Assembly (NCBI RefSeq): GCF_000737325.1
Contig: NZ_CP011125.1
Coordinates: 8,308,001 to 8,372,000, forward strand
Direction: 5' to 3'
From: Sandaracinus amylolyticus
GTDB taxonomy: Bacteria; Myxococcota_A; Polyangia; Polyangiales; Sandaracinaceae
DNA: 64,000 bases
Shown: positions 5,418-41,991 of the stretch, piece after piece
Layout: each line of letters opens with the position of its first letter
Numbering within the stretch: position 1 is the stretch's first letter
Notes under the pieces: generated by a model
What the model was told of the DNA's origin: nothing
The model's database searches: none
What the model saw: only the letters and a program-made list of their open reading frames with translations
Made by a program: the position numbers and the translations under genes

Positions 5418-6176
5418 CTACGGCGCGCGGCTCGTCGTTTTCGTCCGCCCGAGCGCGGCGTTTCGAGACGGCAGGCTCGCGATGAGGCGCGTGATGTCGT
5501 CGCACGCCGAGAACGAACGCGAGCGCGGTGTCGGACCGCTCCGGGCCCAACATGCGCAGAGCCGCGCCGCGAGCTCCTGCGCGTCGAGCGGGCCGGTGAC
5601 GGCGAACTTGTAGCCGCGGCGTCCGTCGCCCGGCTTGCGACACGCACGCAGATGCGGTCGGCCGTCGTCCCAGTAGAGCTGGATCGGGCAGGCGTTCCGG
5701 AACTGGTCGCACGGCCGCGAGATCCCCGCACACGCCGGCGTCGGGACGGGCGGTATCTCTCCGAGTGCCGGATGCGCGCACACACCGCGTGCCGGCTCGT
5801 ACGAGTACGGACGCGCGCACGCGTACGGCAATCGCACGCCCGGCTCCGCTCCCTGCGCGGGCCCGCGAGCGCACGTGAACTCGCGCCGATGCTGCGCCGA
5901 GCGTGCTTCGATCGCGCTCGGCGACGTGTATCGGAATCCCGGCGGCCGCGAGATCACGATCTTCGAGAACGTCGAGTGCGCGCCCGACCGCGAGTCGACG
6001 CGAGCGTGCTCGACGATGTCGACCGGCGGACGAACGCACACCGTGCGCGCGCGACCGCTCGCGCTGGTGCGTACCTCTTCCGAGAACCCGCGCGGACAGG
6101 ATGTCGAGCGCTTCCGCCGCTGCTGAGTTGCGCATCGGCGCGTCGGCGGCGCCCGCATCGAATCCTTCATCCTCAT
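5418..6176 (-). CDS. Cys-rich protein of unknown function downstream of GP88-like gene
   Basis: A 252-residue protein I do not recognise. The ATG at 6176 was chosen because GAGGG lies 4 nt upstream and it begins 10 nt after the GP88-like gene's stop. From residue ~105 it has about ten cysteines spaced over 85 residues (FTCARG, YACARPYSY, VCAHPAL, PACAGISRPCDQF, NACPIQLYWDDG, RACRKPG), then a segment VTGPLDAQELAARLCACW resembling a small alpha/beta core. The Cys pattern suggests metal or iron-sulfur binding, or disulfides; this is inference. Its tight linkage to the GP88-like gene suggests they act together. Confidence 0.6.
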   Translation of the reverse strand: MRMKDSMRAPPTRRCATQQRRKRSTSCPRGFSEEVRTSASGRARTVCVRPPVDIVEHARVDSRSGAHSTFSKIVISRPPGFRYTSPSAIEARSAQHRREFTCARGPAQGAEPGVRLPYACARPYSYEPARGVCAHPALGEIPPVPTPACAGISRPCDQFRNACPIQLYWDDGRPHLRACRKPGDGRRGYKFAVTGPLDAQELAARLCACWARSGPTPRSRSFSACDDITRLIASLPSRNAALGRTKTTSRAP

Positions 6177-13742: not shown

Positions 13743-13958
13743 ATGAACGAGAGCAAGCCGCGTGGTCCCGGAGGACGCTCGCCGAGAGCCGATCGGGCGG
13801 CCGAAGTCCGTGTGACTGTACCCGCGACGCGAACCGAGCGCGATCGGTGGCGACACGCACATCGGGATCTCGGTTTAGCGATGGCGGAAACGGCGCGCGC
13901 AGCCTTCGAAAGCGTTGTGGCTCGAGCGGAGGCGAAGAGGAAGCGAGGCGACCGATGA
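13743..13958 (+). CDS. small basic protein between excisionase and integrase
   Basis: 71 residues, rich in Arg, with a central VRVTVPATRTERDRWRHAHRDLGLAMAETARAAFE that resembles a ribbon-helix-helix repressor (short beta strand followed by two helices). Its TGA overlaps the integrase ATG (ATGA), so the two are translationally coupled. A regulator of the integrase is likely by position; the family call is tentative. Confidence 0.55.
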   Translation: MNESKPRGPGGRSPRADRAAEVRVTVPATRTERDRWRHAHRDLGLAMAETARAAFESVVARAEAKRKRGDR

Positions 13959-15280
13959 CGAGTGGCCAACGGCGAACGAGTGGACGCGGCTCTGTCTATC
14001 GACGGTCCGGCACCCGGGTTTTCTGGTGCAAGTACGCCGGACCCGATGGACGTCGCGTCCAGGAGTCGACGGAGACAAGCGATCGGCGCGCGGCGCTGAG
14101 TTACCTGGCAAGCCGCGTCCGCGAGGTGGTCGACGGCACGTGGGCCCCGAAGAACGGCGCCCAACTGCCGGCAACGCGCACGTTCGAGGACGATTGGAAC
14201 GAGTGGCTCAAGGGGCGAGAGGACGTGAAGACGCTCGCCGACAACCGCTCCGCGGGCCGCGATCACATCCTGCCGGTGCTCGGGAACCTCGTCACGCGCG
14301 AAGTGACAACGGGCCAGATCGCCGATTTCCTTGCCGAGCTGCGGCGGAAAAAGAGCGCGAGGGGGACGCCACTCGCGAAGAACACGATCCGCAACATCAA
14401 CGCGCTGGTCGTGACGTTCTTCGCGGACATGGAGCAGCACGGGAAGATCGCGCGCACGCCGTACGCCGGGCTCCGCAAGAGCCAAAAACCGAAGAAGGCG
14501 TCACGCCACGAGATCGTCGCGGCAAAGCGCGTGTTCTCGCATCAAGAGGTCTCGACGCTCCTCTTCGACGTTCGCGTCGCGCAGGACCGTCGCGTGCTTT
14601 ACGCGCTCCAGTTCTTCACCGGGACGCGTTTCGGTGAGGCGGCTGGACTGCGCTGGCGCGACTACGACTCCGCGGCAGAGCCGCTCGGTGTGATTCGCAT
14701 CACTCACCAGTACGAGGATCTGCCGCTCAAGGGGAAGCGTGCAGAGCCGGGCCCGCCGCGCACCGCGCCCGTGCACCCGCAGCTCGCGGCCATGCTCGCC
14801 GCGTGGAAGCACCAGGGATTTCCGATGCAGTTCGGGCGGCCGCCGCAGCCCGACGATTTCATCTGCCCCCAGAGCTCCGGCGAGTGCCGAAAGCTTCGAA
14901 CGGTGGACAAGCAGCTCCTCGTCGATTGCGCCGCGGTGCGAGTTCCCTCGACGGGCCAGACGCATGCGTTCCGACGTGCGTTCAAGACCATCGCCGTCGC
15001 AAACGGCGCTCCCGAGGTCTGGATCGAGCGCATCATCCACAACGCTGCGGGTGGCGTCGCGGAAGGCTACCTGGCGGACGATTACCCGGCGATGTGCCGG
15101 GCGGTTCAGTGCATCCCGGTGACCGCGCCGAGCCCCGGCGACGTTGTGCCTCTGCGAGCGACCGCGGATGAACTGCCGATAGACCCCCCGGGGCAGCCCG
15201 GCGGCGGTTCGCGCCCGCGCCGTGGCTACAGTCGTGGCTACAGTCGCCGCTCCACGGCTCGGTTTGCTTTGAAAACGGAT
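13955..15280 (+). CDS. tyrosine recombinase (island integrase), C-terminus unresolved
   Basis: Phage-type integrase starting at the ATG of an ATGA overlap. Residues ~1-60 form an AP2-like arm-binding domain (RGSVYRRSGTRVFWCKYAGPDGRRVQ), ~65-160 the SAM-like core-binding domain (TFEDDWNEWLK...), and ~195-390 the catalytic domain with the first Arg (FTGTRFGEAAGLRW), HxxR (THAFRRAFK) and a C-terminal VAEGYLADDY holding the likely nucleophile. The domain ends near 15150, but no in-frame stop occurs before the tRNA gene at 15280; the frame stays open to 17308, antisense to the TROVE gene. The end given is the island boundary, not a stop codon. Confidence 0.85.
15221..15244. repeat. tandem 12-mer CGTGGCTACAGT x2 beside the attachment site
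   Basis: Two identical head-to-tail copies (15221-15232, 15233-15244) lie 36 bp from the tRNA-Glu 3' end, on the island side. Short direct repeats in this position are typical of arm-type integrase binding sites. Confidence 0.5.
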
Positions 15281-15330
15281 ACTGGTGACGGGAGTCGAAC
15301 CCGCGGCCTCTCGACTGAGAATCGAGCGAT
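15280..15330. other. putative att site in the 3' half of tRNA-Glu
   Basis: The integrase gene runs into the 3' end of the tRNA on the opposite strand, the usual geometry for tRNA-integrated islands. The core should lie within the T-arm/anticodon-arm half of the tRNA. The matching second copy would be left of the window and is not present within 1-15279. Confidence 0.45.
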
Positions 15331-15356
15331 CCCATCCCGACGGGATCTCCACCAGC
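15280..15356 (-). tRNA. tRNA-Glu(CTC)-like; probable island integration target
   Basis: A full cloverleaf can be drawn: acceptor GCTGGTG/CACCAGT (first pair G-T), D-stem GATC/GATC with a GG-containing loop, anticodon arm CTCGA-TTCTCAG-TCGAG (anticodon CTC at 34-36, T33 and A37 present), five-base variable loop, T-arm GCGGG-TTCGACT-CCCGT and discriminator A. CCA is not encoded. It is last in the tRNA-like array read right to left. The G-T first pair and A73 are unusual for Glu, so the identity by charging is less sure than the anticodon. Confidence 0.75.
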
Positions 15357-15387: not shown

Positions 15388-15459
15388 AGCGGATGGGGGG
15401 AGTCGCACCCCCGAGGTCTCGGATGGCGCCCGAGATCCGGCGCTCGCCGGGTCACCCGC
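15388..15459 (-). tRNA. non-canonical tRNA-Gly(GCC)-like
   Basis: Acceptor GCGGGTG/CATCCGC with discriminator T, as in bacterial tRNA-Gly; anticodon arm CTCGG-GCGCCAT-CCGAG (GCC at 34-36 but C instead of T at 33); T-arm GGGGG-TGCGACT-CCCCC. The D-arm is CCGG-CGAGCG-CCGG, lacking the G18G19 pair, and the T-loop has G at position 55. The double change removes the normal D-loop/T-loop contact on both sides. Could be a specialised non-translational tRNA or a decayed gene; the intact stems favour a retained structure. Confidence 0.5.
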
Positions 15460-15545
15460 GAAGAACAAAGGGCCGACCAATCAAGTGCGACCGAGAGCCC
15501 TGTACTCTCGTGCGGCATTCGGCCCGGGATCGATCAGGGCGCGAA

Positions 15546-15590
15546 GCTGCCCCGCCCTTCTCCGTCTCTCGGAGGCCCAGGCGGGGCAGC
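15546..15590 (-). terminator. long hairpin after the TROVE gene
   Basis: GCTGCCCCGCC (15546-15556) and GGCGGGGCAGC (15580-15590) pair over 11 bp; an inner CTCCG/CGGAG stem sits inside. It starts 11 nt past the stop codon. No T-run follows, so it may terminate factor-independently only weakly, protect the 3' end, or be a small structured RNA. Confidence 0.5.
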
Positions 15591-15601
15591 TCTTCCCTCG
15601 C

Positions 15602-17188
15602 TCACGCGGTCTCGATCTCCATCCGCTGGATCACGTCGACCCAGCCTGCCCCCTCGCCCCGCGCCTGCGCGAAGGCGGCGATCACGTCGAACACGCGGTC
15701 GGAGAAACCTCCGACGTTGAGCACGTCGTCGCGATCGGGCGCCTGCGTGTGCGCGTAGGGCTGGAGATCGATGCAGACGAGCTTGGCGCGCGGGCAGCGC
15801 GCCTTGAGCTTCGCCCACTCGGTCATCGTCGCCGACGCACCGTGCCCAGAAGCAGAGCCGCGCGCGGACGCGTCGACCCAGGACTGGTTGTCGGAGACGT
15901 ACACCACGAGATCCGCGTGCTCGCGCTTCTCGTTGAGATGCGCGAGGGGCAGCGACACCGAGGTGCCGCCGCCGCCGACCGCCGCGAGCTTCGTCGCGTT
16001 GGTCAGCACGGTGTCGCGCGGCTCGAGCACGACGTCGCGCAGGCGATCGTCGAACGGGAGCACGCGCGCGTGCGTCGCGGTGCGGAGGAACGACGCGGCG
16101 ATCAACGCCGCCACGTCGACGCAGCGCACCGCGGTGGTCTGGCCCTCGCCGCGATCGCCGGTGACCGGCGACTGCATGGAGCCCGACACGTCGGGGAGCA
16201 CCCACACGCGGCCCTCGACGCGCGGCACGTTCGCGATCGCCATCTCGAGCGCGTCGTGCAGCGCCTCGACCACCACGCGCGGCAGATCCGATCCGCGCGT
16301 CGCGACGTACGCGATGAGGAGCTGGTACGGGAACACGCGCGACTTCGCGATCGCCTCGCGATCGCGCAGGCGCTCGGCGATGAGCTCCGGCATGCCGGGC
16401 ACGCCGAACACGCCGTGACGCGCGAACGTCGCGAGGTTCATGCGCGTCACCTGCCAACCCGCGTGCTTCGCGATCTCCACCCACTCGTTGGTGCCGAGCG
16501 GGAGCGACGTGAGCAGCTGGTACGGCACGTCGGGCACCTCGCCCGTCACGTCGGTCTTGTACTGCTCGAACGCGCGCACGAGCGGCGGCAGATCCTTCGC
16601 GTCGTAGGTGCGCCCGATCAAATACGCGTAGAGCGCGCGACGCGCCGGCGTGAGCGGCTTCGGGTGCACCATCTTCACGACGTCGGCGAGCGACGGGCGC
16701 TCACCGATCGACGCGCGGAAGAGCTCGTCGTCGTCCTGCGCGTCGAGCCAGCCACGCACCGCGCGCTTGGGGCGCGTCCCGAGCGATTTGCGCCCGATGC
16801 GGCCCGAGCGGACGATCTGCACGAACGTGCGGACCATGCGCGCGTTGTCGACGACGCGCGGGAACACCTTCGCGAAGAGCGTCGGATCGCGCAGCGACAG
16901 CACCGCGACGAGGAGCGCGGGCATGTCCTTCATGTGCGCCTCGCGACGCGCGTAGAGCGCGGTCTTCGCGAGGAACACGGGATCGACTTTCGTCGCGAGC
17001 GCGAGTGTCTGCTCGAGCTGGTTCTCGTCGGTCGCGTAGTACGTCGCGCCGAGGCATCCGGTCACCGCGAGCTGCGCGAGCGCGTGCTCCGCGGAGAACG
17101 CGTACGCGTTGCCGCCGGCCTCGTGGATCGTGTCGGTGCCCGGCAGGCGCGCGCCCGAGTACGTGCGGAAGAGCGTCGTGTTCACCAT
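15602..17188 (-). CDS. rsr: TROVE domain/vWA protein (Ro60/Rsr orthologue)
   Basis: 528 residues, typical length for bacterial Rsr. The N-terminal ~330 residues form the HEAT-repeat TROVE ring (AYAFSAEHALAQLAVTGCLGATYY, then ENQLEQTLALATKVDPVFLAK, and ARREAHMKDMPALLVAVLS). The C-terminal von Willebrand A domain has an intact MIDAS (DVSGSMQS at ~345; GGTSVSLPL; VYVSDNQSW). Known bacterial Ro60 proteins bind Y RNAs and misfolded or structured RNAs and pass them to exonucleases. The ATG has GAGGTG upstream. The gene is embedded in a tRNA-like array, with a Trp-like tRNA and a cloverleaf-like RNA directly upstream and Gly/Glu-like tRNAs downstream. Confidence 0.92.
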   Translation of the reverse strand: MVNTTLFRTYSGARLPGTDTIHEAGGNAYAFSAEHALAQLAVTGCLGATYYATDENQLEQTLALATKVDPVFLAKTALYARREAHMKDMPALLVAVLSLRDPTLFAKVFPRVVDNARMVRTFVQIVRSGRIGRKSLGTRPKRAVRGWLDAQDDDELFRASIGERPSLADVVKMVHPKPLTPARRALYAYLIGRTYDAKDLPPLVRAFEQYKTDVTGEVPDVPYQLLTSLPLGTNEWVEIAKHAGWQVTRMNLATFARHGVFGVPGMPELIAERLRDREAIAKSRVFPYQLLIAYVATRGSDLPRVVVEALHDALEMAIANVPRVEGRVWVLPDVSGSMQSPVTGDRGEGQTTAVRCVDVAALIAASFLRTATHARVLPFDDRLRDVVLEPRDTVLTNATKLAAVGGGGTSVSLPLAHLNEKREHADLVVYVSDNQSWVDASARGSASGHGASATMTEWAKLKARCPRAKLVCIDLQPYAHTQAPDRDDVLNVGGFSDRVFDVIAAFAQARGEGAGWVDVIQRMEIETA

Positions 17189-17232: not shown

Positions 17233-17237
17233 CGTGA

Positions 17238-17306
17238 CACGCCACCCTGGAGTTGCACCAGGTCCACCGGGTTTTGGAGGCCCTTCGGCTCTGCAGCCTG
17301 TGACGT
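17238..17306 (-). tRNA. non-canonical tRNA-Trp(CCA)-like
   Basis: Acceptor ACGTCAC/GTGGCGT with discriminator G (as in bacterial tRNA-Trp); anticodon loop CTCCAAA, identical to the classical tRNA-Trp loop, but its stem keeps only three good pairs (GGG/CCC); T-arm CCTGG-TGCAACT-CCAGG. The D-arm is minimal (GCT-GCAG-AGC region) with no GG, and position 55 is G. The set of changes mirrors the Gly-like and Leu(GAG)-like genes. Decoding ability is doubtful; structural or decoy function is possible. Confidence 0.5.
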
Positions 17307-17310
17307 AGGT

Positions 17311-17379
17311 GAGTCGGGGAGATCGACCGAGAGGAGCTCGGCAGTGGGGGACTACGAGCGAACGCGGTCGCCCCGACTC
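17311..17379 (-). ncRNA. cloverleaf-like RNA without tRNA consensus (candidate Y-type RNA)
   Basis: GAGTCGGGG at 17311-17319 and CCCCGACTC at 17371-17379 form a perfect 9-bp closing stem 69 nt apart end to end. Inside, read on the minus strand, are three arms: GCGA-CCGCGT-TCGC, GTAGT-CCCCC-ACTGC and CCGAG-CTCCT-CTCGG. The layout copies a tRNA but lacks the TTC T-loop and a proper anticodon loop. It lies between the Asp- and Trp-like genes, just upstream of rsr. Bacterial Y RNAs are known to mimic tRNA and to be encoded next to rsr, which suggests the call; no sequence match was possible. Confidence 0.4.
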
Positions 17380-17391
17380 GTTCGTGGATCA

Positions 17392-17463
17392 CGCCATGTG
17401 AGGGAGTCGAACCCTGCTCACTCCGTCGACAGCGGAGTCGCATCCCGGATGCGTTCACACGGC
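17392..17463 (-). tRNA. tRNA-Asp(GTC)-like
   Basis: Acceptor GCCGTGT/ACATGGC with discriminator G (as in bacterial tRNA-Asp), D-stem CGCA/TGCG with a 7-nt loop containing GGG, anticodon arm CTCCG-CTGTCGA-CGGAG (GTC, T33, G37), variable TGAGC, T-arm with TTCGACT and four good pairs (the fifth is C-C). Canonical T-loop and D-loop are kept. Located after the HNH gene. Confidence 0.7.
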
Positions 17464-17472
17464 AGACGAAGA

Positions 17473-17545: not shown

Positions 17546-18076
17546 TCAAGCGCTCTCGCTCAGCTCCGACTGCCACCACATCCAGCTCTTCCACGCCTCG
17601 GGCACGCCACGACCGAAGTCGAGACGCACGAACAGCATGGGGAGCTCCTTCGGACGGACCGGCGGATGACGGAGCGCCATGCCCGCCTGCTCGGGCGTGC
17701 GGCCACCCTTGCGCGTGTTGCAGCGCGCGCACGCGGTGACGATGTTCTCCCAGCTCGTGCGGCCGCCCTGCGATCGCGGCACGACGTGGTCGAACGTCAG
17801 CTCACGCGGGGGCGCATTCCGGCCACAGTACTGGCAGGCGAAACCGTCGCGCGCGAGCACGTTGGCGCGGCTGAACTTCACACCGCGCTTCGCGTGGCGG
17901 ACGTGACGCACGAGGCGCACGACCGCGGGCATCTTCACGGTGATGCTCACCGAGCGGATGTCCTCGTCGTACTCCGAGAGCACCTCGACCTTGCCGTCGA
18001 AGAGCATCGTGATCGCCTTCTGCCAGGAGACGACGCGATGCGGTTGGTATGTGTGCGTCAAGACGAGCGTCTGCAT
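17546..18076 (-). CDS. HNH endonuclease
   Basis: 176 residues. The HNH core spans ~82-125: CQYCGRNAPPRELTFDHVVPRSQGG, then WENIVTACARCNTRKGG, giving a Cys4 zinc site (CQYC...CARC), the catalytic DHV and the N-x-x-x-K. N-terminal ~70 residues (TLVLTHTYQPHRVVSWQKAITMLFDGKVEVLSEYDEDIRS) match the widespread chromosomal HNH family whose role is undetermined. The start lies 20 nt after the Leu(CAG)-like tRNA, and a tRNA-Asp-like gene follows, so the gene is inside the tRNA array. HNH proteins cut DNA or RNA-DNA; action on RNA here would be a hypothesis. Confidence 0.88.
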   Translation of the reverse strand: MQTLVLTHTYQPHRVVSWQKAITMLFDGKVEVLSEYDEDIRSVSITVKMPAVVRLVRHVRHAKRGVKFSRANVLARDGFACQYCGRNAPPRELTFDHVVPRSQGGRTSWENIVTACARCNTRKGGRTPEQAGMALRHPPVRPKELPMLFVRLDFGRGVPEAWKSWMWWQSELSESA

Positions 18077-18096
18077 GGGAACACCTCGGGGGATGT

Positions 18097-18170
18097 TGCG
18101 GACGGCAAGACTCGAACTTGCACTCGGCGATACCTGAACCCGCTGCCTCTGCCGTTTGGGCTACGTCCGC
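18097..18170 (-). tRNA. tRNA-Leu(CAG)-like with short variable loop
   Basis: Acceptor GCGGACG/CGTCCGC, discriminator A, D-stem GCC/GGC with ACGGC in the loop, T-arm GCAAG-TTCGAGT-CTTGC. The anticodon loop TTCAGGT equals that of bacterial tRNA-Leu(CAG), but the anticodon stem has a G-A mismatch at 31-39. The variable loop is only five bases, whereas bacterial tRNA-Leu is class II with a long arm. Its leucylation is therefore uncertain. Confidence 0.68.
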
Positions 18171-18218
18171 ATGTCTTCTCTGGATTGTGTCTGGATTCGA
18201 CCCTCCTAGCAGGAGGGA

Positions 18219-18305
18219 TGCCCGGAGCAGGACTCGCACCTGCATCGCCCTCGATCGGGCCCCGGCGCCTCACACCGGTGTGTCTGCTGTTTCCACCATC
18301 CGGGC
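18219..18305 (-). tRNA. non-canonical tRNA-Leu(GAG)-like, class II
   Basis: Acceptor GCCCGGA/TCCGGGC, discriminator A, anticodon arm CCGGT-GTGAGGC-GCCGG (GAG, T33, G37), a long variable arm with GCCC/GGGC stem, and T-arm GCAGG-TGCGAGT-CCTGC. The 11-nt D-loop (GAAACAGCAGA) lacks GG and T55 is G, the same coupled change as in the Gly- and Trp-like genes. Confidence 0.6.
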
Positions 18306-18336
18306 CGAGCTCGTCGCCGACGCGACGAGCACGCAA

Positions 18337-18410
18337 CGCTCTCGGGAGGACTCGAACCTCCAACCTCCGGCTTCGCAGCCCGGCGCCCGCTCCATTCGGG
18401 CCTCGAGAGC
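18337..18410 (-). tRNA. tRNA-Arg(GCG)-like
   Basis: Acceptor GCTCTCG/CGAGAGC, discriminator G, D-stem GCCC/GGGC with GG in the loop, anticodon arm CCGGG-CTGCGAA-GCCGG (GCG, T33, A37; one G-G mismatch at 31-39), variable AGGTT, T-arm GGAGG-TTCGAGT-CCTCC. Most bacteria read CGC with an ICG-type tRNA, so a GCG anticodon is uncommon. Confidence 0.7.
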
Positions 18411-18424
18411 AGAGAACGAAAGAG

Positions 18425-18547
18425 GGCCGGCGAGGGTTCGCCAGAGGGTGAGCAGCCCGGCGGCATCCGGCCCGGTGAGTGAGCGCGACGCGCGTAGCGG
18501 CCGGCGAGGAAACGCCGGAGGGTGTGAGACCCGGCTGCATCCGGCCC
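18425..18547. repeat. two copies of a 49-nt structured repeat
   Basis: Copy 1 is 18425-18473 and copy 2 is 18499-18547, the same length and ~82% identical by eye. Both begin GGCCGGCGAG and end GCATCCGGCCC, so GGCC ends pair. Differences fall mainly in loops: GGCGA-GGGT-TCGCC versus GGCG-AGGAAA-CGCC, and GGG...CCC versus GGGT-GTGAG-ACCC. Loop-restricted change with stems kept indicates a folded RNA or a REP-like element. They lie between the Phe- and Arg-like tRNAs. Confidence 0.65.
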
Positions 18548-18588: not shown

Positions 18589-18592
18589 ACGA

Positions 18593-18663
18593 TGCCCCAG
18601 GGAGGGATCGAACCTCCACCTTCCGCTCTTCACGCGGACGCTCGACCTTCGAGCTGCCAGGGC
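18593..18663 (-). tRNA. tRNA-Phe(GAA)-like
   Basis: Acceptor GCCCTGG/CTGGGGC (two G-T pairs), discriminator A as in Phe, D-stem GCTC/GAGC with GG in the loop, perfect anticodon arm TCCGC-GTGAAGA-GCGGA (GAA, T33, G37), 4-nt variable loop, T-arm GGAGG-TTCGATC-CCTCC. It is the first tRNA-like gene of the array in the direction of transcription. Confidence 0.75.
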
Positions 18664-18671
18664 ACTTCGAT

Positions 18672-41487: not shown

Positions 41488-41991
41488 CTACGAGCCGAGG
41501 ATCTTCTCGATCGTGTCGCGCGCGCGCGCCTCGACGAGCGTCGCGAGCAGCGCGCGGACCTTCGGGTGCTCCGCGAGCAGGCGCTCGATGCGATGACGCG
41601 CGAAGGTGACCGTCGTGACCGGCGAGATCGCGGTGACCGTCGCGGTGCGCGGTCCGCCCGAGAGCACCGAGACCTCGCCGACGCACGCACCGCGGCCGAG
41701 CTCCGCGAGCTGCAGCGTGCCGGTCGGCGTGCGCGTCTCCACGCGGACGGTGCCTTCCATGACGACGTACATCGTGTCGCCGGGGTCGCCCTCGCGGAGG
41801 ATCACGTCGCCCTCGTCGAAGCGCATCACGAAGCCGCTCGCGAGCAGGTGCTGTCGCCCTGCGTCGTCGAGCGACTTGAAGAGATGGCTCCGCAGGACGA
41901 TCGCCTCCATGTCGCGCTCGAGCGCATCCTGCTCCGCACGATCGAGGAGGCGGCCACCGCTCGGGATGCTCGAGGGACGACGATCCACCAC
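41488..41991 (-). CDS. cyclic nucleotide-binding domain protein
   Basis: 167 residues from a GTG at 41991 (start uncertain; an ATG 26 codons on also works). A single cNMP-binding jelly roll: LFKSLDDAGRQHLLASGFVMRFDEGDVILREGDPGDTMYVVMEGTVRVE, then LGRGACVGEVSVLSGGPRTATVTA holding the phosphate-binding cassette (GEVSVLSGGPRTAT, with the Arg). There is no DNA-binding HTH, so it is not a Crp-type regulator but a ligand-sensing partner. Divergent from the permease. Confidence 0.8.
   Translation of the reverse strand: MVDRRPSSIPSGGRLLDRAEQDALERDMEAIVLRSHLFKSLDDAGRQHLLASGFVMRFDEGDVILREGDPGDTMYVVMEGTVRVETRTPTGTLQLAELGRGACVGEVSVLSGGPRTATVTAISPVTTVTFARHRIERLLAEHPKVRALLATLVEARARDTIEKILGS

Follow-up and report, generated by a model that had tools for sequence, protein, structure and literature searches.

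Element X, a 69-nt hairpin in the genome of Sandaracinus amylolyticus (10,327,335 bases in a single contig), is best read as a genus-specific structured spacer RNA of a tRNA array that also contains rsr, the gene for a Ro60-like protein, and not as a Y RNA of the YrlA type; we put the probability of this reading at roughly 0.55. Within the 64,000-nt stretch of DNA that was analysed (the window), X is a predicted stable bulged rod, flanked by a tRNA gene on each side, that has hardly changed in a sister species and lacks the Y-RNA motif. A first-pass annotation of this DNA had proposed X as a candidate Y RNA of a new type, with the shape of a cloverleaf and a resemblance to the neighbouring tRNAs, at a place next to rsr where Y RNAs are to be expected. 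The Y-RNA idea is borne out for the locus as a whole but not for X.

The strand of X is inferred from the array, which puts it on the strand of rsr, between tRNA-Asp and a degenerate tRNA-Trp and inside the rsr-containing series of tRNA genes. Read along the minus strand, the order is tRNA-Phe, tRNA-Arg, two tRNA-Leu, an HNH endonuclease gene, tRNA-Asp, X, the degenerate tRNA-Trp, rsr, a tRNA-Gly-like element, and tRNA-Glu (Table 1). From X, a gap of 122 nt, in which the degenerate tRNA-Trp lies, leads to the rsr start codon at 17188, and X is thus indeed a neighbour of rsr. In the tRNA-Gly-like element a paired acceptor stem and a GCC loop can be read by eye. In most of the Polyangiales relatives whose rsr is close to this one (50-61% identity), tRNA genes flank the gene, up to 26 of them in the stretch fetched, and a more distant rsr homologue (36% identity) is accompanied by 32 tRNA genes. 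Three minor observations concern the surroundings. A strong hairpin at 15541-15591 (z about -3.8), in the gap that separates rsr from the downstream Y RNA candidate Yd, may be a processing or termination signal. An open reading frame at 13955-15208 gave the impression of a tyrosine recombinase, which Pfam did not confirm. The genome also carries a second, distant rsr-like gene (L066, G000:C1:1585838-1587421; 31% identity) that has no tRNA genes nearby, and around it no Y-model match passes E 1.

Table 1. Features of the rsr-containing tRNA array, listed along the minus strand in positions of the window.
Feature	Position	Strand	Remarks
tRNA-Phe (gaa)	18591-18664	-	ARAGORN; Rfam 48.5 bits
Y RNA candidate Ya	18498-18547	-	Minimal, without tRNA-like module; R1 55.6 bits (in training set); R3 27.2 bits, E 1.4e-4
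Y RNA candidate Yb	18424-18473	-	In tandem with Ya; R1 55.1 bits (in training set); R3 29.9 bits, E 2.7e-5
tRNA-Arg (gcg)	18336-18411	-	ARAGORN; Rfam 51.3 bits
tRNA-Leu (gag)	18219-18305	-	ARAGORN; Rfam 39.6 bits
tRNA-Leu (cag)	18095-18171	-	ARAGORN; Rfam 47.1 bits
HNH endonuclease gene	17549-18076	-	Pfam HNH_5 63.4 bits, HNH 63.1 bits
tRNA-Asp (gtc), divergent	17391-17464	-	ARAGORN; below Rfam tRNA threshold; weak tRNA-Sec match, 32.1 bits
Probable released RNA	17308-17390	-	X with 11-nt and 3-nt tails, between tRNA-Asp and the Trp-like tRNA
Element X	17311-17379	- (from the array)	69-nt bulged rod hairpin with 9-bp terminal stem
Degenerate tRNA-Trp (cca)	17236-17307	-	Between X and rsr; ARAGORN only at threshold lowered to 85%; 0/72 changes in sister species G002
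rsr	15602-17188	-	Ro60-like protein, 528 aa; Pfam vWA_Ro60 59.1 bits, TROVE 29.6 bits, both above curated cut-offs
Y RNA candidate Yd	15470-15525	-	Directly downstream of rsr; R1 21.8 bits, R3 21.0 bits, E 0.005; in neither training set
tRNA-like element, probably degenerate tRNA-Gly (gcc)	15391-15454	-	Rfam tymovirus tRNA-like model 31.9 bits, below gathering score
tRNA-Glu (ctc)	15280-15356	-	ARAGORN; Rfam 26.9 bits, below threshold

In relatives, the spaces between tRNAs contain a recurring motif, CGAATG...GGGACTACA closed by CCTCGTCG, and the Y RNAs of their rsr loci form a covarying two-stem motif, GNCGAAUG...CCUCGUCG. Chen et al. reportedly found in 2014 that GNCGAAN(0-1)G is the bacterial Rsr-binding motif. 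Because a MAFFT alignment of whole Y RNAs misplaced the 3' arms, two-arm versions were aligned from which the variable apical part had been cut by hand; in the resulting alignment of 13 motif copies, 94.9% of pairs are standard, both sides change at 9 of the 15 pairs, and covariation scores 0.521; shuffles score 0.196 +- 0.027, and 0 of 500 reach the observed value. The Y-RNA models cover the core only, the apical parts having been removed by hand, and their E-values are rough. One of them, R1, has 87 matches at 56 of the 80 named rsr loci, spread over several phyla; all 87 are on the rsr strand and 83 are downstream of rsr. Many motif copies have a T-arm, a closed acceptor stem, and a D-arm inside them, arranged in a permuted order; this agrees with YrlA as it has been described, a stem bearing a tRNA-like domain (PMC8394870). 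One family member, at the rsr locus L053, coincides with an Rfam YrlA match of 70.1 bits. At four loci of Polyangiales arrays (L048, L049, L050, and L055) the Y RNAs enclose a circularly permuted tRNA with an Rsr-type stem at the place of the anticodon arm, and several of them occur per array.

Three Y RNAs, Ya, Yb, and Yd, are predicted in the array of the window. Since Ya and Yb are in the R1 training set, a second model without any Sandaracinus-type sequence, R3, was built to score the window independently, and its top three matches there are Yb, Ya, and Yd; in a whole-genome R3 search over a limited candidate set, the best two among the matches listed are Ya and then Yd, and Yb is not among them. 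Each of the three has the two-stem core with the conserved loops AUGNN and NNNNCCUCG. In Ya and Yb the usual CGA/UCG is replaced by CGG/CCG, a compensatory change on both sides, and in Yd, which has an exact GCCGAATG and a fold z of -2.4, the 3' loop ends in UUGG and not in CCUCG. Yd is kept in the sister species G002 (L047 10635-10690) with 3 of 56 bases changed, and its position downstream of rsr is the usual side for Y-model matches. All three candidates are short (50-56 nt) with short apical loops and no obvious tRNA-like module, and all go undetected by Rfam, whose family RF02553 has no match in the window.

The same models give no such signal at X. Over X and its flanks, with all filters off and on either strand, R1 and R3 reach at most 7.9 bits, a noise level, whereas members on which R3 was not trained receive 21-30 bits from it in the window; an Rsr-binding core with a paired partner strand was accordingly not found in X. 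No Rfam family matches X at E<=10, RF02553 and tRNA included, and X contains no tRNA-like module of D-arm, T-arm, and acceptor stem. By these tests, the model scores and the lack of an Rfam match, X does not belong with the YrlA-type Y RNAs. It does adjoin rsr, yet upstream of the start and so not on the side where most model matches fall. The expectation of Y RNAs at rsr is therefore borne out by the three model matches in the array and not by the element for which it had been voiced. A likeness between the plus-strand GCAGTGGGGGACTACG of X and the Y upper-stem strand GCAGTGGGGACTACA is unsupported by the models and lies on the wrong strand.

The alternative that survives best, though we consider it unlikely, is that X is a Y RNA, though one that has strongly diverged or decayed, in which the 9-bp stem would be the Y upper stem and Rsr would bind the flanks. 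On the minus strand, CGAACGA stands just 5' of X (the Y consensus is CGAAUG) and CACCTACG just 3' (CACCUACG against the consensus CCUCG-UCG), so that the flanks resemble the Y core on both its sides. Of 3610 comparable stems in the window, 0.3% have two flanks that match as well and about 1% have as high a summed score, in a test that was devised after the flanks had been seen. We regard this similarity as a weak hint. Two further points favour the same reading: the homologue of the Trp-like tRNA in the relative G009 is preceded by a real Y RNA, and Y RNAs likewise have a long, bulged terminal stem. A decayed Y RNA is nevertheless hard to reconcile with full scoring by R1 and R3, which covered these same flanks, or with the absence at X of a proper lower stem with CGA/UCG pairing.

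The fold of X speaks for a structured spacer RNA. A perfect 9-bp stem, GAGTCGGGG/CCCCGACTC, closes the 69 nt, as the first-pass annotation had described, and it was equally right that a T-loop and a proper anticodon loop are absent. The three small hairpins that it had drawn under this stem, however, have a fold energy of only -25.0 kcal/mol, 12.6 kcal/mol worse than the minimum-energy fold, which on both strands is a single bulged rod made up, in order, of the 9-bp stem, a one-sided 4-nt bulge, a 6-bp stem, an internal loop, and an apical hairpin (-37.6 kcal/mol on the plus strand and -37.1 kcal/mol on the minus strand). The cloverleaf is thus rejected, and with a rod as the favoured fold the idea that X mimics the neighbouring tRNAs is unsupported. 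X is also no intrinsic terminator: it has no T-run, being followed by ACCTACGTC on the minus strand and GTTCGTGGATC on the plus strand, and is absent from the terminator scan. The closing stem alone is no more than chance would give in a GC-rich genome, where such stems are common: 9-bp stems closing 60-80 nt number 50 in the window and 51 on average in shuffles. The whole fold is beyond chance, with z of -4.2 on the plus strand and -4.7 on the minus strand and 0 of 200 shuffles equally stable; z <= -4 is reached by only 0.4% of 69-nt windows, a comparison that flatters X because it was chosen with optimal ends.

Conservation within the genus points the same way. The rsr genes of this genome and of G002 are 97% identical, and X differs between the two at 1 of 69 bases, an unpaired one, against 47 of 266 bases in the array spacers (17.7%; p about 1e-4) and 37 of 327 fourfold sites of rsr (p about 0.005). 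This low rate is independent support for a fold that exceeds chance. The tRNA-Asp and Trp-like genes are as conserved as X, with a single change in the whole 229-nt Asp-X-Trp block, so the entire block is constrained, and the conservation may belong to the block rather than to X in particular. A hairpin that arose by chance in GC-rich spacer DNA, and whose conservation reflects only a recent block or some other constraint, would account for this shared conservation as well as for the ordinary frequency of the closing stem; we think it improbable, as the whole fold stands in the top 0.4% and the spacer beyond tRNA-Asp, on its far side from X, has changed by 19%.

Outside the genus, X was not found. 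R2, a structure model of X built from two sequences, finds it in 2 of 184 genomes of the order, this one and G002, and nothing convincing in 20 array loci or the 182 other genomes; its best other match is at 41625-41711 of the window (E 0.012). A DNA search of 57 relatives likewise gave a full-length match in the sister species only, the rest being short and weak. The two X sequences differ at one unpaired base, and no compensatory changes were seen at homologous loci in the 184 genomes. Conservation of the stem in homologous loci, on which the earlier proposal had been made to depend, is thus strong within the genus and fails beyond it (0 of 182 other genomes of the order). Least probable of all is that X is the remnant of a tRNA gene, with an acceptor-like stem still present and the T-arm gone: its length and position would fit, between tRNA genes in an array where several are degenerate, but X has no cloverleaf, 7-nt T-loop, or anticodon loop, draws no tRNA match from Rfam at E<=10 and no ARAGORN call down to 85% of threshold (at 75%, ARAGORN returns noise, 47 genes in 4 kb), has no proper tRNA homologue in the 20 array loci and 182 order genomes, and is among the best-conserved stretches, which is unexpected of a decaying gene.

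If X is a structured spacer RNA, the array would be transcribed as one long minus-strand RNA, although no promoter-like site in support of a single array transcript was found. Two cuts, one where tRNA-Asp ends (3') and one where the Trp-like tRNA begins (5'), would then free X together with short single-stranded tails, giving a ~83-nt RNA whose ends are set by those of the neighbouring tRNAs and whose predicted fold has a z of -4.3. The long GC-rich stem would shield the released RNA from exonucleases, and it may let the flanking tRNAs fold independently. More speculatively, X could be a ligand of Rsr, since proteins of the Ro60 type are reported to bind misfolded RNAs with no strict requirement for sequence (PMC4726728). 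A broader reading, in which tRNA arrays with an embedded rsr form a dedicated Ro/Y-RNA module that provides Rsr with a large set of interchangeable RNAs (permuted tRNA mimics, 23S rRNA helix mimics, and plain rods), and in which X is an Rsr ligand specific to its lineage and of an undescribed kind, seems to us rather unlikely.

X fits a class of stable non-tRNA hairpins that also occupy gaps between tRNAs in other arrays of this kind. Nine of the 38 inter-tRNA gaps tested, X among them, have z <= -3.7, a count that is not fully independent, as one 67-nt rod is included for G007 and again for its close relative G009. This rod, between tRNA-Pro and tRNA-Arg, has a perfect 9-bp terminal stem and a C-rich loop (L048 6863-6929 and L049 110-176, oriented with rsr on the plus strand), and is X-like with no detectable sequence similarity to X. 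The array of L048 holds another small element at 5913-5969 (same orientation), 57 nt long; it has an 8-bp stem, a loop (CTGCAAA) resembling the one in tRNA-Cys, and neither T- nor D-arm, and is possibly an armless tRNA-like element.

Compared with known systems, X resembles the bacterial Y RNA YrlA (RF02553) in lying beside rsr, on the rsr strand, and in having ends that form a long bulged stem; it differs in lacking both the GNCGAAUG...CCUCGUCG core and the tRNA-like module, whereas Ya, Yb, and Yd have that core and show no obvious module of this sort. As in the Salmonella rsr-yrlBA-rtcBA RNA repair operon (PMC7790460), the genes for Rsr and Y RNA are adjacent on one strand, but the partners seen here are tRNA genes plus one for an HNH endonuclease. 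In archaea, 20 of 29 surveyed tRNA clusters were reported to contain a TROVE-domain gene, which means that finding TROVE genes together with tRNA clusters is not itself new (PMC6333295). The present locus is like those clusters in placing rsr within an array of many different tRNA genes together with an HNH gene; unlike them, the present arrays occur in bacteria (in Polyangiales and in some other phyla), with Y RNAs lying among the tRNAs.

What Ro60-like proteins do is determined by Y RNAs, few of which have been characterised in bacteria. For other Ro proteins, deletion of the gene has been reported to lower Y RNA levels (PMC4726728). The locus described here combines rsr within a tRNA array, short Y RNA candidates that Rfam misses, and additional hairpins, X among them. 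Should X be expressed and be a ligand of Rsr, such ligands would no longer be limited to YrlA-type RNAs; even if it is not, the locus shows that a hairpin beside rsr does not suffice for calling a Y RNA and provides a motif, tested by covariation, that tells the two apart. A further observation concerns four rsr-locus sequences of relatives in which the stretch ACTATAACGGTCCTAAGGTAGCGAA, which we take to be 23S rRNA, follows directly on a Y-type CGAATG motif: L056 (minus strand, 4656), L051 (plus strand, 9151), L053 (minus strand, 993), and L119 (plus strand, 12647), the last from Undibacterium sp. TS12, where the CGAATG match is looser. The stretch agrees at 25 of 25 bases in L056 and with 3-5 mismatches in the other three, and by their sequence all four look like Y RNAs that mimic a helix region of 23S rRNA.
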